Source: Deltaproteobacteria bacterium (GTDB lineage: Bacteria > Myxococcota_A > Polyangia > JAAYKL01). From it: DNA of 32,539 bases. Position numbers and translations under genes: made by a program. Location of the stretch: contig JAQTNF010000045.1 of NCBI GenBank assembly GCA_028713995.1, positions 1 through 32,539 on the forward strand. The letters run 5' to 3'. This document shows positions 4,645-27,396 of this stretch, one piece after another; the stretch's first letter is position 1, and every line of letters begins with the position of its first letter. The notes below the pieces were generated by a model, which searched no databases, had not been told where the DNA came from, and saw only the letters and a program-made list of their open reading frames with translations.

Positions 4645-4977
4645 GGCCTGAAAAGAGTCTTGTCGAAAAGGAAGAAACTTTTTCCGTGGCGCAAGGCTCC
4701 CGGGATCTCGGATCGCAATGTCGTCATGCCCCGAAAGACTCCGTTCGGCCGGCGCGAACATTGTCTTCCGGCCCGCAAGGGACTTGGAGCGCCGGCGCAG
4801 ATCTTCTCCCGAGGCAAAAGACTTCTTGAACGGCTTGCCCGGTTTGGGGAACGGCGCGCACGGCGATTTTCCGCCCAGGGCAGGAAGCCGACCGGGCGAA
4901 AAAGAGTCTTTCCCGCGAGGTCGAGCTTTGTCCTTCGGGGAAAGGGGGACTTTGAGGCGGTTCTCGGATGTGCCTTT
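4645..4977. other. Gene-poor stretch with degenerate purine-rich motifs
   Basis: No credible coding region lies here; open frames on both strands lack family-like sequence. AAAAGAGTCTT-like cores recur at 4651-4662, 4733-4741 (GAAAGACTC), 4816-4827 (AAAAGACTTCTT) and 4899-4910 (AAAAAGAGTCTT), most followed or preceded by GC-rich blocks. They may be remnants of a dispersed repeat. No clear intrinsic terminator for lysK was found. Confidence 0.4.
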
Positions 4978-5010
4978 CGCTGCTTGGGTTCCTGCTGGGC
5001 TGGGCGCGAC
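4978..5010 (-). repeat. Probable degenerate terminal CRISPR repeat
   Basis: The 33 bases ending at 5010 match the CRISPR repeat at 12 of the 14 positions nearest 5010 (ending GGGCGCGAC) and diverge over the rest. The next intact repeat starts at 5046, leaving 35 bases (5011-5045), exactly a spacer length in this array. In crRNA orientation the 5' part of the repeat is kept and the 3' part decayed, the usual pattern at the leader-distal end. Confidence 0.6.
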
Positions 5011-5045
5011 ATGCCCGCGCCGAGCGCGGCTGTGCGGTAGTTGAG

Positions 5046-7684
5046 GTTTCAATCCACGCGCCCCGTGCGGGGCGCGACCGAGTGGGTGGTTGTTGGGCTC
5101 TCCCCACTCCGGGTTTCAATCCACGCGCCCCGTGCGGGGCGCGACCTGCGCCGTACGCCGCAGCCATCATCCGGATCGGGTTTCAATCCACGCGCCCCGT
5201 GCGGGGCGCGACCGGCTGCGACAGGGCCTCGCGCACTCGCTTCGTGTTTCAATCCACGCGCCCCGTGCGGGGCGCGACCAGCGCAGCGGTTCTGATATTC
5301 CGATACAGATATGTTTCAATCCACGCGCCCCGTGCGGGGCGCGACGGCTACGCGCTGGACGCCGGCCCGTTCAAGATGTTTCAATCCACGCGCCCCGTGC
5401 GGGGCGCGACGGCGCTGTCCGCGCTACTTCGCGGGTTCGCGGATGTTTCAATCCACGCGCCCCGTGCGGGGCGCGACCACAGAGAACGGGTTGGAGATCC
5501 GGCCCGAGAATGTTTCAATCCACGCGCCCCGTGCGGGGCGCGACCCGAGCGTGTGGTCGTAGATGGCGCGGCCAGAGGTTTCAATCCACGCGCCCCGTGC
5601 GGGGCGCGACGGCAACCTGCCCGGAACTGGACCTCGACCTCGTGTTTCAATCCACGCGCCCCGTGCGGGGCGCGACGTAGCCTTGGCCAGTTCAATCGCG
5701 TTCGAGTTGTTTCAATCCACGCGCCCCGTGCGGGGCGCGACGACGGAGGGGCACGGCACGTGACATGCCCGTCGCCGTTTCAATCCACGCGCCCCGTGCG
5801 GGGCGCGACCCAAGGGTCACGGCTTTCGTGGCTTGTCGCAGATGTTTCAATCCACGCGCCCCGTGCGGGGCGCGACCGGGCTATTCGGAAGATCGCCCTT
5901 GTAGCAACCGGTTTCAATCCACGCGCCCCGTGCGGGGCGCGACCGCAATTACCCGCAGCGCCTCCACAAACCGCTCCATGTTTCAATCCACGCGCCCCGT
6001 GCGGGGCGCGACACCTCGTGTACGGGTTGATCAAGCCTGCGAGTAAGTTTCAATCCACGCGCCCCGTGCGGGGCGCGACAGGGACGGGGAGCATGAAAAA
6101 GATAACGAGACTGTTTCAATCCACGCGCCCCGTGCGGGGCGCGACGCCGCGGCCGGGATACCGATCCATCCCTCTGTCGAGTTTCAATCCACGCGCCCCG
6201 TGCGGGGCGCGACCTGCGGTTCCGAGGACATTCGCTCGGATGTTGTTGTTTCAATCCACGCGCCCCGTGCGGGGCGCGACAAGACACGGGGTTACTCGCC
6301 AACATGCAGCCGGAGTTTCAATCCACGCGCCCCGTGCGGGGCGCGACGAAGGAGATCATGGGTTCCACTGGTCCGAGATAGTTTCAATCCACGCGCCCCG
6401 TGCGGGGCGCGACAGGCGCTCAAGCGTGGAGAGCGATTCGCGATCCTGGTTTCAATCCACGCGCCCCGTGCGGGGCGCGACATCGACACCACGGCCTACC
6501 CGTGCGGCGACCAGTTTCAATCCACGCGCCCCGTGCGGGGCGCGACAGGCGCTCGAACTCGCATCGCGCGTCGAGTCCATGTTTCAATCCACGCGCCCCG
6601 TGCGGGGCGCGACGACTGTCCCTGAGACTGTCCCACGTCACATCGTGTTTCAATCCACGCGCCCCGTGCGGGGCGCGACCGGTCGTAGAGGGGGACGCCT
6701 CCCCGGACGTGTTGTTTCAATCCACGCGCCCCGTGCGGGGCGCGACGTTCAACCGCTCCACCCACATCGCTTGCGCCTCCGTTTCAATCCACGCGCCCCG
6801 TGCGGGGCGCGACGCTCGTCTATGTGCATCACGCCGTCCTTCCTGTAGTTTCAATCCACGCGCCCCGTGCGGGGCGCGACCCGGAACGGTCGTCGGCGTC
6901 CCCCGATGGGTCGGTTTCAATCCACGCGCCCCGTGCGGGGCGCGACGCCGACGCGCGGTATGTCCACAAGGTAATGAACGTTTCAATCCACGCGCCCCGT
7001 GCGGGGCGCGACCGTGACGGCGGTTGAGGCCGATAGCCTCATCGAGTTTCAATCCACGCGCCCCGTGCGGGGCGCGACGCGGTGCGGAATCTTCTTCCGC
7101 ATCCGGCACGGGTTTCAATCCACGCGCCCCGTGCGGGGCGCGACCGCATGCGGTTGCGCATCCGGTTCGTAGAATTCGGTTTCAATCCACGCGCCCCGTG
7201 CGGGGCGCGACGGGGATACCGATGCCGGGCCTGGAACCGAGGCGACTGTTTCAATCCACGCGCCCCGTGCGGGGCGCGACCTGCCAACCTCGTAGCGGTT
7301 CCCGAGAACATCTTGTTTCAATCCACGCGCCCCGTGCGGGGCGCGACGCGGGAACGAGACCGCCTTGCGTCGCGAAGATTTGGTTTCAATCCACGCGCCC
7401 CGTGCGGGGCGCGACAGCGAGACGTGGAAATCCCGGACGCTGGGCACGTGTTTCAATCCACGCGCCCCGTGCGGGGCGCGACCTCGAACCCGGAACTGCG
7501 ACTCATGCTCATCAGGGTTTCAATCCACGCGCCCCGTGCGGGGCGCGACATGCGTCGAATTGTCCGACTGTATCCACTGGCGTCGTTTCAATCCACGCGC
7601 CCCGTGCGGGGCGCGACGTTCTGGACGTGCGCTCATTGTGGGACGGTGCACGTTTCAATCCACGCGCCCCGTGCGGGGCGCGAC
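5046..7684 (-). CRISPR. Type I-C CRISPR array, 40 identical repeats and 39 spacers
   Basis: Counted by hand: 40 repeats of 33 bp, the first at 5046-5078 and the last at 7652-7684, all apparently identical, with 39 spacers of 32-36 bp (mostly 33-35). On the plus strand each repeat starts GTTTCAATCC and ends GGGGCGCGAC. CGCGCCCC and GGGGCGCG form an 8-bp stem with a 4-base loop. Read on the minus strand, the strand of the cas genes, 11 bases (TGGATTGAAAC) follow the stem, matching the 11-nt 5' handle described for Cas5d/Cas5c processing. The leader-proximal end is therefore at 7684, next to cas2. No two spacers looked identical by eye. The repeat family, spacer size and adjacent cas genes agree on subtype I-C. 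Confidence 0.98.
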
Positions 7685-7872
7685 AGCCTATATGATTTCC
7701 CCTATTATTACGCATGGTCAAGCTCTCGCTTCCGCGAACCTGCTTGCCGACAGCCGACCATGGATGCAACCTGCCCGCGTTGTCCTGAAATATGTTTTGG
7801 TTTTCAAAGAGATTCGGACAGCGCGAACCTCCCAGGGATCCCGTGATCGATCCGGGTTCGCGCGTCGCCGTG
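7685..7872 (-). promoter_or_regulatory. CRISPR leader
   Basis: This 188-bp non-coding stretch lies between the cas2 stop and the first (leader-proximal) repeat. It is richer in A and T than its surroundings, especially next to the array, where TAATAATA and CATATA occur on the minus strand within 30 bases of the repeat. A TTGACC at 7721-7716 could be a -35 box, but no good -10 lies at normal spacing, so the array promoter is not resolved. New spacers would be inserted at 7684/7685. Confidence 0.75.
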
Positions 7873-16382: not shown

Positions 16383-16411
16383 TGGCCGGTACACTGGAAC
16401 GGGGATTTTTT
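16374..16411 (+). terminator. Possible intrinsic terminator after the toxin stub
   Basis: ATCCCGT (16374-16380) can pair with ACGGGGAT (16399-16406, one bulged G) around an 18-base loop, followed by six T (16406-16411). It would end antitoxin transcription facing the S9 peptidase gene. The stem is short, so support is moderate. Confidence 0.35.
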
Positions 16412-18524
16412 ACGGGCCCGCGATCTTTTTGACCTGCGCCGCGGGCGCCGTCTTGCCGCGCTTGATCCCCGCGTGGTCCGCGAGCCAGTCGAGCACCGTG
16501 TTCCACCAGAGCCGCGCGTTCTGCGGCTTCTGCACGAAGTGGTTCTCATCCGGGAAGAAGAGGAGCTTCGACTCCACTCCCTGCCGTTGCAGCGCGGTGA
16601 AGAGCTGAAGGCCCTGGGTGTAGGGCACGCGGAAGTCCTGCTCGCCGTGCACGACGAGCGTTGGCGTCTTGAACTTGCCCGCGAACGCCGAGGGCGAGGA
16701 TTTCTCGTACGTCTCGGGGTTGCCCCACGGCGTGCCCTTCATCTCCCACTCCGGGAACCACAGCTCCTCGGTGGCGCCGTACATGCTGACCTGGTCGTAC
16801 ACGCCGTCGTGGGACACGAGCGACCGGAAGCGATCGGTGTGGCCCAGGATCCAGTTGATCATGAACCCGCCGTACGAGGCGCCGGCGGCCGAGACGTTTT
16901 TCCCGTCCGTGAAGGGGAACGCGGCGAGCACGTGGTCGAGGCCCTTCATGACGTCCTCGTAAGGCGCGCCGCCCCAGTCGCCGCTCACCGCGTCCGTGAA
17001 CGCCTGTCCGTAGCCCGTTGAGCCGTGGAAGTTGACGGACACGACCACGAAGCCGGGGCCGGCGAACATCTGCATGTTCCACCGCTGGTGGAAGTCGTCG
17101 CCGAAGCTCCCCTGCGGCCCGCCGTGCATCAGCATGAGCACCGGGTACTTCCTCTTCGGATCGAACCCGGGCGGCTTGAGCAGGAAGCCGTGCACCTTGT
17201 CTCCATGGGCGCCCTCAAACTCGAGCTCCTCGCCCGCACCCATCTCGATGCCGGCCACGACATCGTCGTTCACGTGCGAGATGCGCCGTTCCCCGCCGCC
17301 CGACATGGACATGGAGAAGACCTCGGTGGGCTCGGACATGGACTGTCCGATGAACACCACGCTTTTCCCGTCCGAGGTCACGACCGGCGACGAGGCCGTG
17401 TGCTCGGCCCGAACGCGGGTGACGATGGCCGACGGCACGGCCGCCTTGTAGAGCATGAGACGGCCGCGTTCCCACACGTTGAACACGATCTCGCGCGAGT
17501 CGGGCGACCAGGAGAACTCCTCGACCGACGCGTCGAGGGCTTTGGTGAGCGCCGTCGCCGCGCCACTCTTGCGCTCGACGATCGTGAGCACGCGGCTGTC
17601 GGACTCGAAGCCCGGGCGCTTCATGGCCAGGTACGCGAGGTACCTGCCGTCCGGCGAGTACCTGGGCTCCGCGTCGCACGCCTCGTTCTTCAGCGTGACG
17701 TTCACGGGCGCCTTGCCCGCGACCTTGACCGTGAACACGTCGTTGTTCGTGTTCCACGCGGGGTTCCGCGTGACGTTGGCCGCAAAGGCGACCTCGTCGC
17801 CCTCGGGCGAGATGTCGAGGTCCAGGTGCCCGCCCAGGTCGAACGGCGGCGTCTCGATGTCGCCGGGCGTGAGATCGCGCGGCTCCGTGCCGTCGAGGGC
17901 CACCCACAGCACGTGCGACCGGCGCTCGTCGCGCCAGTGATCCCAGACGCGGTAGAGCAGCCTGTCGTATGTGCGCGCCTTGACCGGATCGGCCTCGAGC
18001 TCCTTGGCCCGCTTCTCGTTGCACGCCATGTCCTTGCACGACGGGAAGACCTGGGCCTGCACGGCCAGGTGCCTGCCGTCCTTGGCCACGGCGAAGCCGC
18101 CCACGTCCATGGGCAGCTTCGTCAGCTGCACGGCCTCGCCGCCCGAAAGCGGGATGGCCCATACCTGGGACGAGCCCGAGCGCGTGGACAAAAACGCGAG
18201 CCGCTCGCCGTCGGGCATGAACCTGGGCGACGTGTCCGCCGCGGCCGCGGTCGTGAGCTGCCGCACCTTGCCGTCCGCCAGCGTCGAGAGGAACAGGTTC
18301 GTCGTGCCCTTGTTGGCCGCCATGTCGAAGCGCTTGACCGAGAAGGCCAGGAGCTTTCCGTCGGGCGAGACCGCCACCTCCTGCACGCGGCCGAGGCGGT
18401 AGAGGTCGTCCACCGTGAACGGGCGTTTGCCGGCTGCAAACGCGCCGGCGGGCAGGAGCGCGAGCACCGCAAGCAGGGCGGAAAGGACCGGGCGAACGAA
18501 ATGCGGCGTGATGTTGTTTGTCAT
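16410..18524 (-). CDS. Secreted S9-family (prolyl oligopeptidase-like) peptidase
   Basis: 704 residues from ATG 18524, with GGAGGCTG upstream. A signal peptide (VLSALLAVLALLPAGAFA, about residues 13-31) predicts export. The first ~400 residues form a beta-propeller with TolB/WD40-like blades (VSPDGKLLAFSVKR, YSPDGRYLAYLAM, WSPDSREIVFNVW). The C-terminal alpha/beta-hydrolase carries the catalytic triad Ser550 in GASYGGF, Asp630 in GEQDFRVPY and His662 in DENHFV. It most resembles the acylaminoacyl peptidase/DPP-5 branch, which releases acyl amino acids or dipeptides from short peptides. It likely works alone in the periplasm, since neighbours are on the other strand. The open frame extends 176 codons upstream, but that part is only the antisense of the Asp/Ser repeat gene. 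Confidence 0.93.
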   Translation of the reverse strand: MTNNITPHFVRPVLSALLAVLALLPAGAFAAGKRPFTVDDLYRLGRVQEVAVSPDGKLLAFSVKRFDMAANKGTTNLFLSTLADGKVRQLTTAAAADTSPRFMPDGERLAFLSTRSGSSQVWAIPLSGGEAVQLTKLPMDVGGFAVAKDGRHLAVQAQVFPSCKDMACNEKRAKELEADPVKARTYDRLLYRVWDHWRDERRSHVLWVALDGTEPRDLTPGDIETPPFDLGGHLDLDISPEGDEVAFAANVTRNPAWNTNNDVFTVKVAGKAPVNVTLKNEACDAEPRYSPDGRYLAYLAMKRPGFESDSRVLTIVERKSGAATALTKALDASVEEFSWSPDSREIVFNVWERGRLMLYKAAVPSAIVTRVRAEHTASSPVVTSDGKSVVFIGQSMSEPTEVFSMSMSGGGERRISHVNDDVVAGIEMGAGEELEFEGAHGDKVHGFLLKPPGFDPKRKYPVLMLMHGGPQGSFGDDFHQRWNMQMFAGPGFVVVSVNFHGSTGYGQAFTDAVSGDWGGAPYEDVMKGLDHVLAAFPFTDGKNVSAAGASYGGFMINWILGHTDRFRSLVSHDGVYDQVSMYGATEELWFPEWEMKGTPWGNPETYEKSSPSAFAGKFKTPTLVVHGEQDFRVPYTQGLQLFTALQRQGVESKLLFFPDENHFVQKPQNARLWWNTVLDWLADHAGIKRGKTAPAAQVKKIAGP

Positions 18525-18621
18525 GGGCAGCCTCCGGCCCGCGTTATAGCTGATGGTCCAGCTTTGTTGTAGGATCAAAAAAGATCCACATCGCCGCTTC
18601 GGCGGGAAGGTTGCACGAGCC

Positions 18622-19644
18622 ATGGCCACGAAAGACGCTCTTGCCCGGTACGTTTTCGCATCGGTTCTCGTCGTGCTCCTCGCGACTTCCTGCGCCACGA
18701 TGGAGGTCGTCGGGGACGACGACACCGTGACGGACGCGGGATGGGCAACGGATACGGGCACCGGCACCAGCGGTGCGGACGGCGACGCGGATTCCGATGC
18801 GGACTCCGACGCGGACGGGGATACGGATGGAGATGGCGATGCCGATGCGGGCTCAGACGCAGATGCAAACGGTGATTCGGACTCTGACTCTGATTCCGAT
18901 TCAGACTCTGATTCCGATTCTGACGCGGACTCGGATTCCGACACGGACACGGACACGAGCACAGCAGACTGCGCCACGGTCATCGCGGGCATGGCCTCGG
19001 ACTTCGAGGACATGAGTGGCGACTGGACCCACGGCATTCTGGACGGCCACACCTCGGGCTGGCCGAGCTGGACCTACGACCACTGGGAGCGCGGCAACGC
19101 CACGTCCGGTCCGGGCTCGTGCCACGGCGGCACGGGCTGCTGGGCCACGAACCTGGACGACAACTACATCCAGTGCCAGCGGGCATGGCTCAAGTCGACG
19201 AACCTCGACCTCTCGACTTGCGTGGACACGGACGTGAGCATCACATTCTGGCACTGGTTCGATTTCTGGACCGGCACCTACGGCTCCCAGCCCTGGTACG
19301 ACGGCGGGTTCGTGGAGCTGTCGGGCGACGGAGGGAGCAGCTGGCTCGCGGCCACGGGCGCGGGGTACAACGGCACGACCACGATCAACCCCAACATGGA
19401 GGGGGGATACGTCTGCTATAATCCGACCTCGTTCTACGTCGACGACAAGCCGGGCTACGTGGGATCGAGCGGCGGCTGGCTGCAGGTCACGATCCCGGTG
19501 CCGCAGGCTCTGCGCACGTCCACATTCGCGCTGCGCTTCGTGTACTCTACCGGCGTGAGCTATGCCACCACCAACCAGAACACATCCATGCAGCACGCGG
19601 CGCCGGGCTGGTACATCGACGATATGGCCGTGGTGAGCCCGTAG
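18622..19644 (+). CDS. Lipoprotein with Asp-rich SD/AD linker and MAM-like exported domain
   Basis: 340 residues. MATKDALARYVFASVLVVLLATSC is a lipoprotein signal with lipobox Cys24. Residues about 30-115 are a low-complexity linker of Ala-Asp, Ser-Asp and Thr-Asp dipeptides, encoded by repeated GATTCCGACTCT-like hexamers. The C-terminal ~220 residues form a predicted beta-sandwich with paired Cys, Trp-rich patches (HWFDFWTGTYGSQPWYDGGFVEL) and the ending APGWYIDDMAVVSP. That GWYIDD ending is typical of MAM/immune-inhibitor-A-like carbohydrate- or protein-binding domains. The function is unknown; a surface-displayed binding module on a flexible spacer is inferred. GGAAGG lies upstream of ATG 18622. 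It diverges from the S9 peptidase. Confidence 0.75.
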   Translation: MATKDALARYVFASVLVVLLATSCATMEVVGDDDTVTDAGWATDTGTGTSGADGDADSDADSDADGDTDGDGDADAGSDADANGDSDSDSDSDSDSDSDSDADSDSDTDTDTSTADCATVIAGMASDFEDMSGDWTHGILDGHTSGWPSWTYDHWERGNATSGPGSCHGGTGCWATNLDDNYIQCQRAWLKSTNLDLSTCVDTDVSITFWHWFDFWTGTYGSQPWYDGGFVELSGDGGSSWLAATGAGYNGTTTINPNMEGGYVCYNPTSFYVDDKPGYVGSSGGWLQVTIPVPQALRTSTFALRFVYSTGVSYATTNQNTSMQHAAPGWYIDDMAVVSP

Positions 19645-22238: not shown

Positions 22239-23284
22239 CGGGCCTCCGGCGGAACGAGCATGGCGTCCCCGTAGCTGTAGAAGCGGTAGCCTTCGCGTAC
22301 GGCCTGCGCGTATGCCTCGAGCATCCGTTCGCGCCCCACGAGCGCCGATACGAGCACGAGCAGGGTGGAGCGCGGCAGGTGGAAGTTCGTGATGAGGCCA
22401 TCCACCACGCGGAAACGAAAGCCCGGCCGGATGAAGAGGTCGGTCGGGCCGCTGAAGGTCGCGACGCGGCCGCGCGATGCGAACGCCCCCTCGAGCGCGC
22501 GCACTGCGGTCGTGCCCACGGCCACCACGGGGCGGCCTTCGGCCTTGGCCCGGCGGATCGCGGCGGCGGCGGCCTCGTTGATCTCGAGCTCCTCGGCGTC
22601 CATGCGGTGCGCGTCCATTTCGTCGGCGGTGATGGGGCGGAAGGTGCCGGGTCCCACGTGCAGCGTCACGAAGGCGCGCTCCACCCCTCGGCGCTCGAGC
22701 GCGGCGAGGAGATCCTCGCTGAAGTGCAGGCCGGCCGTGGGTGCGGCCACCGACCCGTCGCGCGCGGCGTACACGGTCTGGTAGCGCTCCGTGTCCGCGG
22801 CCACGGGCGCGCGCTTGATGTACGGCGGCAAAGGGACCTCCCCGTGGCCCGCGAGACGGGTGCGGACCGCGGCCTCGTCCGCTTCGAAGTCGAGCTCCAC
22901 TTCCCCCTGCCCGCCGCGCCCGGCCACCGTGGCCGCGAGCCCGGCGAGCTCGATCGCGTCGCAAGGCTTGAGCGGCCTGTTCGCCTTGGCGAGCGCGCTC
23001 CAGCGGGACCCCGCGCCGCGCGGACCCAGACAGCGCATGAGGAGGGCCTCCACGCGTCCGCCCGTGACCCGCACGCCCCGCAGCCGGGCCGGGATCACGC
23101 GCGTGTCGTTCGCCACGAGCAGGGTGCCCGGCGCGAGCAGCTCCGGCAGGTCGGTGACGCGTCCGTGTTCGAACGGCCGATCGCCGCGCGGCACGATCAT
23201 GAGCCGTCCGCTGTCGCGCCGCTCGGGCGGGTGCAGGGCGATGAGCCCCTCGGGCAACTCGTAGTCGAACAGGTCGGTCTTCAC
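22235..23284 (-). CDS. queA: S-adenosylmethionine:tRNA ribosyltransferase-isomerase QueA
   Basis: 349 residues from GTG 23284 (VKTDLFDYELPEGLIALHPPERRDSGRLM), overlapping the kinase stop by four bases. QueA transfers the ribosyl part of SAM to preQ1 in tRNA, giving epoxyqueuosine. Family signatures are VANDTRVIPARLRG, AAPTAGLHFSEDLL, FVTLHVGPGTFRP, AVGTTAVRALEG and LITNFHLPRSTLLVLVSA. It overlaps tgt, which supplies its substrate tRNA. The reading frame stays open far upstream across the kinase gene, but the family start and the coupled GTG fix the beginning here. Confidence 0.97.
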   Translation of the reverse strand: MKTDLFDYELPEGLIALHPPERRDSGRLMIVPRGDRPFEHGRVTDLPELLAPGTLLVANDTRVIPARLRGVRVTGGRVEALLMRCLGPRGAGSRWSALAKANRPLKPCDAIELAGLAATVAGRGGQGEVELDFEADEAAVRTRLAGHGEVPLPPYIKRAPVAADTERYQTVYAARDGSVAAPTAGLHFSEDLLAALERRGVERAFVTLHVGPGTFRPITADEMDAHRMDAEELEINEAAAAAIRRAKAEGRPVVAVGTTAVRALEGAFASRGRVATFSGPTDLFIRPGFRFRVVDGLITNFHLPRSTLLVLVSALVGRERMLEAYAQAVREGYRFYSYGDAMLVPPEAR

Positions 23285-25395
23285 TGGAAGGAGATCCGGT
23301 ATGGCGCATCCAGAGAAACGCCTCGGTCCTGCGGCGGCGGGCTCGCGAGCCTGACCGCCACGCAGACGGGACCGGTCCCGGCCGGCAGCGCCACCGCCGC
23401 GCCTCGGCCCTCGCCCGCGCTCGACGGTGCGCTCTCCGCGGCCCCGGGGGCGGACCTCAGGGCGAGACCCACGTCGAGCCCGGGTACGCCGCTCACCCGC
23501 GCCTGGGACGCCGCGGCGTCCGCGGGCAGGCAGTACCAGTCCACGTCGGAGAGCGTCGCGAGCGCGCCGGCCATCGTCGTCCCGGGCCGCGCAATGGTCG
23601 CCTTGTCCGGGGTGTCGTTCGGCTCGTTCTCGACGCTCGCCGCTTCGAGCGGCGTGAACGTGACCGTGTACGGCGCGCTCGGGAAATCGCCGGCCGAGGC
23701 GCCGGCCGGCTGCACCTCCTGCACCATGAGCAGGAGCTCCGGGACGTCGACCACGAGCGGTCCGATGCGCTCGCCTCCGCCGGGCCCGTTGCGGTTGGCT
23801 TCGGCGAGAGGCGTGGGCGAGGCGGGATCTCCGAGCCGCGCGCCCAGATCGAGGCCGGGTGCGCCCGTGACGGCTACCTCGACGGCCCACTTTCCGGCGG
23901 TCGGCCCGCGCAGCCGGTACCAGTCCACGTCGCCCTTCGGGAGCTCGCCCGAAATGAACGCCGTGAGCGGGACGTCCGGCCAGAGCGGATCGGCCTTCCC
24001 GGGGGCGTCGTTGGGCTCGGTCTCGCGCCCGGGATCGGGCGGCGCCTCGCGCGACGCGAGCAGGAACGCCGCCGCGGCCACGACGCCGGCCGCTCCCACC
24101 GCGGCGAGGAGGGCGATGGTGAAGATCTTGCGCTTCTTGATCCTGCGCTCGAACGAGAAGAAGTCGCTGCGCGTGCCGATGCCCACCTCGCGCGCGCCGA
24201 TGATGACCGACCGGCCCAGGGACGAGGCCGACGATCCGCGCGCAAAGGACGGAGGCACGCTCGCCGCAGCCTCCCCGGCCAGGACCGTGGCGCCGAGCGC
24301 CCCCATGTCCCAGCCGCCTGTGGGCGGGACCTCCACCTTGCCCATCTGCCACGTGCCGTCCGCGGCTTTCCCGGACGAAGGGCCGGGCCCGGTGCTCGCG
24401 GATGACGACAGGCGCAGCCGACCGCCGGGTGTGCTCATGCCGTCCAGGGCGTCGGCCAGCGCGCGGCGCATCTCGTCCGCCGAGGCGTAGCGGTCGGCCG
24501 GGCTCTTGGCCATGGCCTTCCTGACGATGCGGTCGGCCACGCGCGGGATGCCGAGCTCGGGGAAGCGCTCCGACGGCGCGGGCGGCTCTTCGGTGAGGTG
24601 CTTGGTGATGATGCCCATGGGCGTGCCGGCCGTGAAGGGCGGCTCGTCCGTGAGCAGCTTGTGCATCATCGCGCCCAGCGCGTAGACGTCCGTGCGCGCA
24701 TCCACGCCCTCGCCGCGGATGTGCTCGGGCGCCATGTAGTACGGCGTGCCAAGGAGCGAGCCCTGCACCGTGATGTACGTGCCGCCGCGCACGTTCTTGA
24801 GCTTGGCGAGCCCGAAGTCGAGCACCTTCACGAAGTCGCCCTGGTCGGGATCGGTCGAGACGATGATGTTTTCGGGTTTGAGATCGCGGTGCACGATGCC
24901 CTTGCCGTGGGCCTCGACGAGCGCGGAGCAGACCTGGATCAGGATGCCCGCCGCGCGGGCGAAGGGGATCGGTCCGGAAGCGCGCAGGATCTCGGCCAGG
25001 TCGCGGCCGTCGATGAATTCCATGACCAGGAACATCATGCCGTTGTGCGTGCCGAAGTCGAACACCGACACGGTGTTTATGTGGGTGAGCCGGCTCACGG
25101 TCTCGGCCTCGCGGCGAAAGCGGCGCACCAGATCCTGGTCCTGCGACAGCTCCCCGTGCAGGAGCTTGACGGCCATGATCTTGCCCATCTTGACGTGCTC
25201 GGCCCGGTATACGGCGCCCATGCCGCCGCGGCCGACGAGGTCGATGATGCGGTAGCGGCCGTCGATGACGAGCCCGACGAGCGGATCGGCCGGCGGGGCG
25301 ATCGCGGGGCACGCGCCGGGTAAACGTGTGCCGCACACGCCGCAGAACGTCACGTTCCCCTCGTAGCTTGTGCGACAGCGCGGGCAGTCGACCAA
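23281..25395 (-). CDS. Zinc-ribbon Ser/Thr protein kinase with periplasmic PPC-like repeats
   Basis: 704 residues from TTG 25395, with AGGAGG 8 bases upstream. Order: zinc ribbon (Cys4, Cys7, Cys18, Cys21); Hanks-type kinase domain with GRGGMGAVY 55-63, Lys77, HRDLKPEN from 169, DFG 193-195 and APE 222-224; a Ser/Gly-rich juxtamembrane segment; one membrane helix at about 423-447; then two repeats starting EPND (460 and 591) with DVDWY, the pattern of PPC (pre-peptidase C-terminal) domains. The kinase is cytoplasmic and the PPC-like part faces the periplasm, suggesting a sensor. All catalytic residues are present. It starts 15 bases after the zinc-ribbon protein gene and overlaps queA. Confidence 0.92.
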   Translation of the reverse strand: MVDCPRCRTSYEGNVTFCGVCGTRLPGACPAIAPPADPLVGLVIDGRYRIIDLVGRGGMGAVYRAEHVKMGKIMAVKLLHGELSQDQDLVRRFRREAETVSRLTHINTVSVFDFGTHNGMMFLVMEFIDGRDLAEILRASGPIPFARAAGILIQVCSALVEAHGKGIVHRDLKPENIIVSTDPDQGDFVKVLDFGLAKLKNVRGGTYITVQGSLLGTPYYMAPEHIRGEGVDARTDVYALGAMMHKLLTDEPPFTAGTPMGIITKHLTEEPPAPSERFPELGIPRVADRIVRKAMAKSPADRYASADEMRRALADALDGMSTPGGRLRLSSSASTGPGPSSGKAADGTWQMGKVEVPPTGGWDMGALGATVLAGEAAASVPPSFARGSSASSLGRSVIIGAREVGIGTRSDFFSFERRIKKRKIFTIALLAAVGAAGVVAAAAFLLASREAPPDPGRETEPNDAPGKADPLWPDVPLTAFISGELPKGDVDWYRLRGPTAGKWAVEVAVTGAPGLDLGARLGDPASPTPLAEANRNGPGGGERIGPLVVDVPELLLMVQEVQPAGASAGDFPSAPYTVTFTPLEAASVENEPNDTPDKATIARPGTTMAGALATLSDVDWYCLPADAAASQARVSGVPGLDVGLALRSAPGAAESAPSSAGEGRGAAVALPAGTGPVCVAVRLASPPPQDRGVSLDAPYRISFQ

Positions 25396-25410: not shown

Positions 25411-27396
25411 CTAGCGGCGCTTGCCCTTCGCGGGCTCCTTGGCCTTTTCCACGAACTTGGCCTCCACCGCGGGCATGGTCTCCTTGGTCCCGCCGCGCAG
25501 ATCCACGTCGCGCGTGCCGCGCACCGTGCCGTACACGTCGACCGAGGATTGCAGGCCCGCGTCCGTCTCGCCGCGGAAGACCACGTACACCGCGCACCTC
25601 GCGCCGGCCGGGCAACCTTCGCCCACATACAGGAGGAAAGCGGTGACGCCCTTCTCGGTGCTGATGTTCACCACGCGGCCGCTCACCTTCAGCTTCTTGC
25701 CCACCTGCACCTTGGCGTCGCGCGCGAGCGTCGGGTAGTCGAGCTTCCTGTCGAGATCCTTGGACCAGGCGGCGACGGCGTCGTCGAGACTGGCGATGCG
25801 GGTGACCTTGATGGTGCTGGTGCGCGGCGCCTTGCCCGGGGCGCGCGCGACGATCGCGACGACGTGGTCGCCCATGGCCGGCAGCGGCACCGCCGCGCTG
25901 AATCCGCCCGCGGTCACGCCCGCGGCCCGGCCGTTGACCGTCACCTCGGCCCCCTCCTCGGTCACGCCGCTGCATGTCACCGTGTCGAACGGCACCACCG
26001 CGTCCGCGGCCGGGCGATCGATTTGAAGCTTCGTCACGGGGATCGTGACGAGGTGCTGGCCCTGCTCCGTGGCGCCGCCCGCCTCGGCGAGCTGGAACGG
26101 CAGCTTGTAGATCAGGTTGTCGCCCGCCACCTCGCCCACGGGCATGACCGACGCGAGCGCGACCCTTTGCGTGTAGCCGCCTTGCGAGGTGTCGACCGGC
26201 TTGCCGTCCACCGACAGCTGGATGCCGGGCGCCACGCGGAAGACCACGTCGAAGAACGGCTGCGCGGTGACGAGGCCCGTGAGATCCGTGGTCGACGAGT
26301 GCCGGAGCGCGATCTCGACCTTCTGGGCCTCGGGCTGCTTTCCGGGCTCCGCGTAGGTCACGAGGATCTCGTTCTCCCCGAGCCTGAGCTGGTTCACCGG
26401 CAGATCCATTCGCGCCTGTCCGGCCGCGATCGGCACGGCCACGCCGCCGATCTGCACCTGGGCGCCGGGAGGCGCGGACGGGTACGCGAGCACGACCGTG
26501 ATGCTGGCGCCGTCCGGGGACGGGAAGATCTGCGCCCGCACCGCGTTGTCGCCACGCCCGAGGAACAGGTACAGGATCACGACCACGCACCCGATGATGA
26601 GCACTCCCGCCGCGACAACCGCGATGAGCAGGCCCGGACTTCGCCCGCGCGGCGTCTTCTCCTCGTCCGGCCACTCGTCCACGTCGTCGCGCGCCGATCG
26701 CGACTGCGCGGGTCTCTCGGCGCGGTGATCGGGCTCGGCCGAGCTCGCGGTCGTTCGGGACGGCTCCGAGGCCGCTGCGATCGTCGCGGCCCGGGTCTCG
26801 GCCTGGTCGAGCTCCTTGTGTGCGGGCTTCACCTGCTCCGGGGCCGCGGCCGGCGGTGGGTTGGAGATGGGCGTCGCCGTCTGCATCCTCGCGGGCTCCG
26901 CCGTGACGGCCCGCATGCCGAGCACGGTGCGCTTGTCGAGGCCGGGCTTTGCGGCCGGGGCGGCGGGCGGCGGTGGGTTGGAGATGGGCTTCGCCATCTG
27001 CACCTGCGCGGGCTCCGCCGTGACGGCCCGCATGCCGAGCACGGTGCGCTTGTCGAGGCCGGGCTTTGCGGCCGGGGCGGCGGGCGGCGGCGGGGGGGTG
27101 GAGATGGGCTTCGCCATCTGCACCTGCGCGGGCTCCGCCGTGACGACCTGCATGCCGAGCGCGGTCTTGGCCAGTTCCATGCCGGGCCCCGCGGCATGCA
27201 CGGGTTGGGCGGGAGGCGCGACCGGGACCGGCTTGATGATCTGGGGCGCGACCCCGAAGAGCACGGTCTTGGCCGGCACGCTTTGCTTGGGAGCGTCGCG
27301 CCGGGGCTCGGCCTGGTCGCCGGACAGGGCGCTGCCGCAGGCGGAGCAGAACTGTATTCCTTCGATGTTGACGGTACCGCACACCTTGCAGATCAT
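25411..27396 (-). CDS. Zinc-ribbon single-pass membrane protein with KTxLGM repeats
   Basis: 661 residues from MICKVCGTVN, with GGAGG upstream. An N-terminal zinc ribbon (Cys3, Cys6, Cys17, Cys20) resembles that of the downstream kinase. A Pro/Ala-rich cytoplasmic region contains K/R-T-x-L motifs at 43-48 (KTVLFG), 77-82 (KTALGM), 117-122 and 156-161 (both RTVLGM), the last three within a tandem repeat. One membrane helix spans about 255-280. The remaining ~380 residues would be periplasmic, with beta-rich PEGA/Ig-like segments (VQLSVDGKPVD-like, GAEVTVNGRAAGV) and a C-terminal OB-like part (KKLKVSGRVVNISTEKGVTAF). The enzymatic function is unknown. As first gene of the kinase operon it is a likely substrate or partner of the kinase. 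Confidence 0.7.
   Translation of the reverse strand: MICKVCGTVNIEGIQFCSACGSALSGDQAEPRRDAPKQSVPAKTVLFGVAPQIIKPVPVAPPAQPVHAAGPGMELAKTALGMQVVTAEPAQVQMAKPISTPPPPPAAPAAKPGLDKRTVLGMRAVTAEPAQVQMAKPISNPPPPAAPAAKPGLDKRTVLGMRAVTAEPARMQTATPISNPPPAAAPEQVKPAHKELDQAETRAATIAAASEPSRTTASSAEPDHRAERPAQSRSARDDVDEWPDEEKTPRGRSPGLLIAVVAAGVLIIGCVVVILYLFLGRGDNAVRAQIFPSPDGASITVVLAYPSAPPGAQVQIGGVAVPIAAGQARMDLPVNQLRLGENEILVTYAEPGKQPEAQKVEIALRHSSTTDLTGLVTAQPFFDVVFRVAPGIQLSVDGKPVDTSQGGYTQRVALASVMPVGEVAGDNLIYKLPFQLAEAGGATEQGQHLVTIPVTKLQIDRPAADAVVPFDTVTCSGVTEEGAEVTVNGRAAGVTAGGFSAAVPLPAMGDHVVAIVARAPGKAPRTSTIKVTRIASLDDAVAAWSKDLDRKLDYPTLARDAKVQVGKKLKVSGRVVNISTEKGVTAFLLYVGEGCPAGARCAVYVVFRGETDAGLQSSVDVYGTVRGTRDVDLRGGTKETMPAVEAKFVEKAKEPAKGKRR
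26864..27160. repeat. Tandem repeat inside the zinc-ribbon protein gene
   Basis: The block starting GAGATGGGC recurs at 26864, 26981 and 27101, with periods of 117 and 120 bases. The two right-hand units are nearly identical and the left one is more diverged. Each unit encodes about 39-40 residues: Pro/Ala run, K/R-T-V/A-L-G-M, then VTAEPAQVQMAKPIS. The 3-bp difference keeps the frame. Confidence 0.9.

Follow-up and report, generated by a model that had tools for sequence, protein, structure and literature searches.

Organisation of the locus and architecture of the zinc-ribbon protein

The analysed stretch of DNA (32,539 bp, hereafter the window) carries a gene for a zinc-ribbon membrane protein, ZNR, followed by a gene for a Hanks-type kinase; both are encoded on the reverse strand (Table 1). 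The ZNR reading frame starts with an ATG at position 27396 and encodes 661 amino acids, arranged as a zinc ribbon, a disordered linker bearing a repeated motif, one transmembrane (TM) helix and periplasmic Ig-like beta domains. The zinc ribbons of ZNR and of the neighbouring kinase match Zn_Ribbon_1 only under the Pfam cut-off, and the four cysteines are invariant in the alignment of 13 ZNR orthologues. The linker between the zinc ribbon and the TM helix is Pro/Ala-rich and about 225 residues long. In the AlphaFold model, residues 26-180 and 182-255 have pLDDT values below 50 and the periplasmic part is folded. The periplasmic part includes a Pfam match to Glucodextran_B at residues 456-532, and the Foldseek search with the ZNR model returned Ig, cadherin and similar beta domains with low TM-scores. 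The sequence search found no solved relative.

Table 1. Coordinates of the features described in the text. Positions refer to the window unless a locus (L) is named.
Feature	Position	Strand	Basis
ZNR gene	25411..27396	-	ORF, Pfam, orthologues, structure model
ZNR N-terminal zinc ribbon, residues 1-25	27322..27396	-	Zn_Ribbon_1, E=2e-4, under Pfam cut-off
Motif 1, KTVLFGV, residues 43-49 (Thr44)	27250..27270	-	translation
Motif 2, KTALGM, residues 77-82 (Thr78)	27151..27168	-	translation
Motif 3, RTVLGM, residues 117-122 (Thr118)	27031..27048	-	translation
Motif 4, RTVLGM, residues 156-161 (Thr157)	26914..26931	-	translation
DNA tandem array spanning motifs 2-4 (117-bp unit, 2.8 copies)	26838..27165		TRF
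WPDEE, acidic Trp patch N-terminal of the TM helix (second short element)	26659..26673	-	pattern count vs shuffles
ZNR TM helix, residues 256-279	26560..26631	-	hydropathy and model
ZNR periplasmic Ig/cadherin-like beta domains, residues 285-655	25432..26544	-	Pfam, model, Foldseek
Hanks kinase with zinc ribbon; TM candidate at about residues 425-446	23281..25395	-	PF00069, E=3e-46; hydropathy
Kinase activation segment TYITVQGSLLGTPYYMAPE (T-x-x-G)	24724..24780	-	translation
Motif-like RSVIIGA, kinase linker before TM	24193..24213	-	translation
Three-motif single-TM protein	L337:10298-11170	+
Stp1-type PP2C downstream of it	L337:11263-12030	+
Acidic Trp patch loci beyond the window	L485, L189, L126, L161, L162, L193

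Two further regions of the window were noted. Positions 4968-7846 are occupied by a long run of near-identical repeats through which open reading frames extend, and the genes beside it look, by eye, like CRISPR-Cas type I-C. A Ser/Asp-repeat coding stretch (18553-19644, forward strand) overlaps an S9 peptidase reading frame (16410-19052, reverse strand) in its N-terminal extension.

Motif copies in ZNR and their conservation among relatives

The disordered segment between the zinc ribbon and the TM helix contains four motifs with Thr44, Thr78, Thr118 and Thr157, as an earlier sequence-only reading of this DNA had described. Their assignment to a single KTxLxG type holds for motifs 2-4, which share T-x-L-G, but motif 1 is one residue longer (T-V-L-F-G). 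The recent tandem duplication proposed in the same reading was recovered by TRF as an array with 93% matches and 2% indels, and 105 of 118 nucleotides are identical around the two RTVLGM motifs. Among the 13 aligned orthologues, this duplication is seen in the present genome only. When the ZNR linker was shuffled 20,000 times, a single motif appeared in 13 shuffles, and two or more motifs appeared in none.

ZNR was matched in 19 of the 59 genomes searched, its own genome included. The family consists of 14 genomes, and an orthologue with the motif segment is present in 13 of them; that of G009 is divided between two contigs, while G006 has a 156-residue remnant frame from which the motif segment is gone. 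In the alignment of the 13 family sequences (36-53% identity to ZNR), invariance within the linker is confined to T44, G121, T157 and G160, and A42, T118, P133, P151, P182 and D240 are nearly invariant. In locus L006 a threonine aligns at T44, yet motif 1 is absent. As the four invariant linker residues are all motif residues, the motif appears to be more than a by-product of the repeat. A conserved pattern within variable sequence of low predicted order (pLDDT below 50) is what is expected of a short linear motif.

The usual layout of the orthologues is K-T-M-(M/L)-F-G near residue 46, followed by two [KR]-T-[MV]-[LM]-G sites. The motif is thus kept in all 13, but the copy number is not, ranging from one strict copy (L010, where the other two sites are degenerate, KTMLFN and GTMLGA) to four. 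Because of this variation, and because the tandem duplication belongs to this genome only, the suggested tuning of a signal by repeat number is speculation. ZNR relatives in the other-family genomes G026, G034, G042 and G056 carry two to four motifs each, and in the relative from G025 a single strict copy is accompanied by two that lack the basic residue. The ten relatives with names are Myxococcota or Deltaproteobacteria MAGs.

Search for the motif across the class and context controls

In the first search, restricted to the own genome, the pattern gave 21 sites against 32 in a codon-order control and was rejected as evidence of enrichment; beyond ZNR, one site in a PilZ-PEGA protein looked real. 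Since this pattern was not enriched, the analysis turned to the sequence context of the sites. The DNA pattern search of 59 genomes for x-T-[MV]-[LMIF]-G-[MV], with first codons for K/R and for other residues, yielded 179 sites against 55 in a backward control, an excess of little weight, since forward reading is favoured by codon bias. Patterns with GC-ending codons missed the kinase-PEGA motif of this genome, which was recovered by homology, and the pattern counts are therefore lower bounds.

Among the matches listed, 131 sites were read, each in its own frame, whether a gene or not. The context was called Pro/Ala-rich when Pro+Ala reached at least 0.35 over positions -22 to +30, a threshold chosen after the contexts were seen. 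By this measure 21 of 83 K/R-T sites among the matches listed lie in a Pro/Ala-rich context, compared with 0/48 sites with another first residue and 0/53 K/R-[S/P/A] sites (Fisher, 3e-5 and 1e-5, respectively). The non-Thr controls came from a sister search and comprised 40 K/R sites in the order listed, from nine genomes, together with automatic loci; 13 of the 53 are Ser by our own count, and 0/13 in a Pro/Ala-rich context is a small test. The result changed little when the ZNR loci were dropped (18/80 K/R-T sites; Fisher 1e-4 and 5e-5) or when only frames of at least 150 codons were counted (19/67, against 0/33 for another first residue and 0/39 for K/R-[S/P/A]). The 21 sites are not independent, as orthologues inflate the count; they represent about 15 protein families by eye, one of them a doubtful 29-codon frame. 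These comparisons support the view that both the threonine and the basic residue matter to the Pro/Ala-rich context, and that the acceptor position is not replaceable by Ala or Pro.

The sequences point to a class-wide short linear motif with the approximate consensus [KR]-T-[MV]-[LMFI](F)-G-[MVLAI], with Pro or Ala often next in sequence, which this class of Myxococcota places in predicted disordered linkers, mostly on the N-terminal side of a TM helix. Eighteen loci from other classes of the phylum were examined, one per genome, of which 11 have K/R (own count) and one, L409, looked real. In the literature searched, with most subscription journals outside its scope, no description of the motif was found, and the titles revealed no phosphoproteome of the class.

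Proteins carrying the motif

The motif occurs in several unrelated proteins, namely kinases, PilZ-PEGA proteins, ZNR, a phosphatase-linked TM protein and others. The Pfam scan covered 20 carriers, 15 in a Pro/Ala-rich context and five below the threshold that were picked by eye. A Pkinase domain was detected in eight of them (5/15 and 3/5), and the remaining carriers were PilZ-PEGA, PEGA, Hsp70-like, NuoE-like or zinc-ribbon proteins, or had no family. With ZNR included, a TM candidate was present in 17 of 21 carriers, and the motif precedes it in all 17. In the TM-bearing kinase and PilZ carriers the motif lies on the same side of the membrane as the kinase or PilZ domain; for carriers without either domain a cytoplasmic location is presumed. 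The NuoE-like and Hsp70-like proteins have a motif-bearing tail (L174:1657-2943 and L180:1266-3686, both on the reverse strand).

For the kinase-PEGA family, 16 chosen genomes were searched and a close orthologue was found in 14. The motif, with K, R or A before the threonine, is present in 10 of these 14, the copy on contig C58 of this genome included, and in 6/10 once four previously known genomes are left out; it is degenerate in G007 and G021 and absent in G002 and G029. The PilZ-PEGA orthologues carry the motif or a variant in 8/13 family genomes (four of them strict), and those of G003, G004, G006, G008 and G011 lack it. All five fall in genomes without a ZNR-linked kinase, a coincidence that shared ancestry could explain. 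In the PilZ-PEGA loci L436, L437 and L438, from three genomes of one genus, Gly replaces K/R (AKGTIIGM) and the Lys stands one residue earlier. The 14 own-genome kinase frames that were read, from 14 kinase regions representing a subset of the kinases of this genome, contain no motif.

The neighbouring zinc-ribbon kinase

The next gene encodes a Hanks kinase with an N-terminal zinc ribbon (CxxC-CxxC), in agreement with the sequence-only reading. Its score against the NCBIfam PknB_PASTA_kin model (PknB/Stk1 equivalog) was 324 bits, below the cut-off of 450 bits, and its AlphaFold model is of low confidence (pLDDT 54). The motif-like site in the linker of this kinase reads RSVIIGA, KSVIIGT, KSVMIGK or, in two relatives, STVQIGA among the f1 kinase orthologues; the orthologue comparison showed no such site in the kinases of G007 and of other families.

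The gene order ZNR-kinase is kept in 8/13 family genomes and in four other-family genomes. In G003, G004, G008, G011 and G013, ZNR adjoins queA with no kinase between them. Each family genome contains 23-79 matches (E up to 1e-20) to the window kinase, and the best ones in these five genomes (E 1e-74 to 5e-81) are at paralogue level, because they resemble the own-genome paralogue (5e-79), whereas orthologues give 5e-126 or better. Since other families possess this kinase, its loss from the five genomes is the simpler reading. Their ZNRs still hold motif sites, and therefore the neighbouring kinase is not the sole reason for the motif. The exclusive pairing of ZNR with the next kinase, implied by the sequence-only reading, is not supported by these genomes, and ZNR is unlikely to be a substrate of that kinase only. 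The wider part of the same model, in which the motif threonines are kinase substrates, agrees with the conservation of the motif, with the importance of the threonine and the basic residue, and with the association with Hanks kinases and PP2C.

A three-motif protein beside a PP2C phosphatase

Contig C59 of this genome encodes a 290-residue protein that starts with MAKTVFGVPG, continues with RTVFGM and ATVLGM and ends this series before a TM segment; a PP2C gene follows immediately downstream. The phosphatase of this genome, the only copy scored, reached 260 bits against the NCBIfam Stp1 cut-off of 230 bits. Of the 12 family loci with an orthologous PP2C, nine have a three-motif TM protein directly upstream, and those of G002, G005 and G007 do not; G012 gave a partial match only, and G008 has no close phosphatase. 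In all 17 other-family PP2C loci, checked over about 1.5 kb upstream, the three-motif protein is absent, and a relaxed rule gave one unrelated match in each of two of them. The invariant residues of the nine three-motif proteins are mostly M-x-K-T-x-F-G-x-P, T-x-F-G-M-P-A and A-T-x-(L/I)-G, with few others, just after motif 1. The gene following PP2C at L337 looks like ABC1, on a Pfam test made in the G003 locus L338 only.

The strongest hint that the motif threonine may be a phosphorylation site comes from these neighbours, because a kinase adjoins one multi-motif membrane protein and a phosphatase adjoins another.

FHA domains, activation segments and the acidic Trp patch

This genome encodes 26 FHA domains. 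None of the 26 FHA loci is linked to or carries a K/R-T motif, the only related match being ATLFGV at a Pro+Ala fraction of 0.28. FHA ligands do not usually have Gly at +3. A kinase frame is also present at three of the 26 loci (L387, L392 and L400).

The T-x-x-G spacing was found in 45 of 50 kinase activation segments from the fetched loci, some of which are nearly identical, and it is common in the activation loops of Hanks kinases. Of these 45 segments, 30 have Leu and two have Lys at -1, and 14 have Met and 13 have Ser at +4; the kinase-PEGA activation loops read KTQAGI. The motif and the activation segments therefore share their spacing but differ at -1.

A second short element, Trp with acidic residues after it, between the motif and the TM helix, occurs in 9/13 ZNR linkers (0.23 expected from shuffles) and in 5/16 other carriers (0.30 expected), four of these five being one kinase family; the pattern behind these counts was fixed after looking. 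The patch, in the forms WPDEE, WDDDEPPTNIY and WEDDD, is found in ZNR as well as in a kinase-PEGA family and in the phosphatase-linked protein.

Interpretation and comparison with known systems

Our preferred reading, to which we assign a probability of roughly 0.55, is that the motif threonine is a phosphorylation or docking tag of a Hanks kinase-PP2C network, with ZNR as a multi-site scaffold. Hanks-type kinases, probably several that target one another as well as common membrane proteins, partly in trans, would phosphorylate the threonine, and the Stp1/IreP-type PP2C would clear the phosphate. The phosphorylated tag would recruit or cluster partners at the membrane, with a putative reader and output, and ZNR would couple several such sites to a periplasmic sensor domain. 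Besides the conservation, the context controls and the kinase and phosphatase neighbours, the motif-like site in the linker of the neighbouring kinase and the T-x-x-G spacing of the activation segments favour this reading; the orthologues of kinase-PEGA and PilZ-PEGA without the motif, the PP2C loci without the three-motif protein and the kinases without the motif-like site count against it. A broader version, in which [KR]-T-[MV]-[LMF]-G-M would be a lineage-wide phospho-tag across Hanks kinases, the partner of the Stp1 phosphatase, PilZ-PEGA and zinc-ribbon proteins, with many kinases, a common code and a common reader, and the acidic Trp patch as second element, is more tentative and falls somewhat short of even odds.

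The serious rival is a docking motif that works without phosphate, in which a shared groove of a kinase, scaffold or other adaptor tethers the membrane proteins and the threonine is a contact residue; we consider it possible, at odds well below even. The hydrophobic residues at +1, +2 and +4, the fixed Gly and the basic -1 residue resemble a binding peptide, the Ser controls were all outside the Pro/Ala-rich context in the small test above, the Hsp70-like and NuoE-like proteins are among the carriers, and the motif survives without a neighbouring kinase. Against this stand the association of the motif with Hanks kinases and the PP2C gene, and the fact that Ser and Thr replace each other in the motif-like site that the neighbouring kinase carries.

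A model in which the adjacent kinase phosphorylates Thr44, Thr78, Thr118 and Thr157, FHA proteins act as readers and the number of repeats determines how strong the signal is, as the sequence-only reading proposed, is improbable. The adjoining zinc-ribbon kinase in eight family genomes and four of other families, the number of FHA domains and the PilZ-PEGA proteins without the motif in five assessable kinase-less genomes fit this proposal, although one clade could explain the absence of both motif and kinase; the motif sites retained in five genomes without the kinase, the FHA loci without a K/R-T motif and the Gly at +3 speak against it. Neutral expansion of a low-complexity linker, with a motif devoid of function, would suit the recent array confined to this genome but is hardly credible given that the motif is conserved in orthologues and in several families of unrelated proteins, and given the outcome of the two residue-specific controls.

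A sequence-defined motif that kinases share with candidate effectors and a phosphatase-linked protein provides a list of proteins for phosphorylation tests, and the motif peptide could be used as bait for its putative reader. To our knowledge, few substrates have been described for the many Hanks kinases of these genomes, and there is no general code that defines such substrates.

TcaA has a zinc ribbon, a TM helix and extracytoplasmic beta domains, an architecture that ZNR shares. ZNR differs in its motif linker and kinase neighbour, neither of which we know of in TcaA, and its match to TcaA_3rd_4th (E=5e-4, 20.3 bits) is below the 27-bit Pfam cut-off of that family. In other bacteria the Stp1/IreP PP2C pairs with a PASTA kinase of the PknB type; the phosphatase of this genome resembles it in exceeding the family cut-off but differs in adjoining a motif-bearing TM protein.

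A third parallel is the cytoplasmic juxtamembrane linker of StkP/PknB-type kinases, between kinase domain and TM helix, which is phosphorylated and whose threonines are proposed as docking sites; the seven juxtamembrane threonines of StkP do not fit the predicted substrate motif (PMC12077195). The likeness, as in the PknB juxtamembrane-FhaA case, lies in linker threonines as putative phospho-docking sites, and the difference from StkP is that here one motif, with putative phosphosites, recurs in kinases, in a phosphatase-linked protein and in others.
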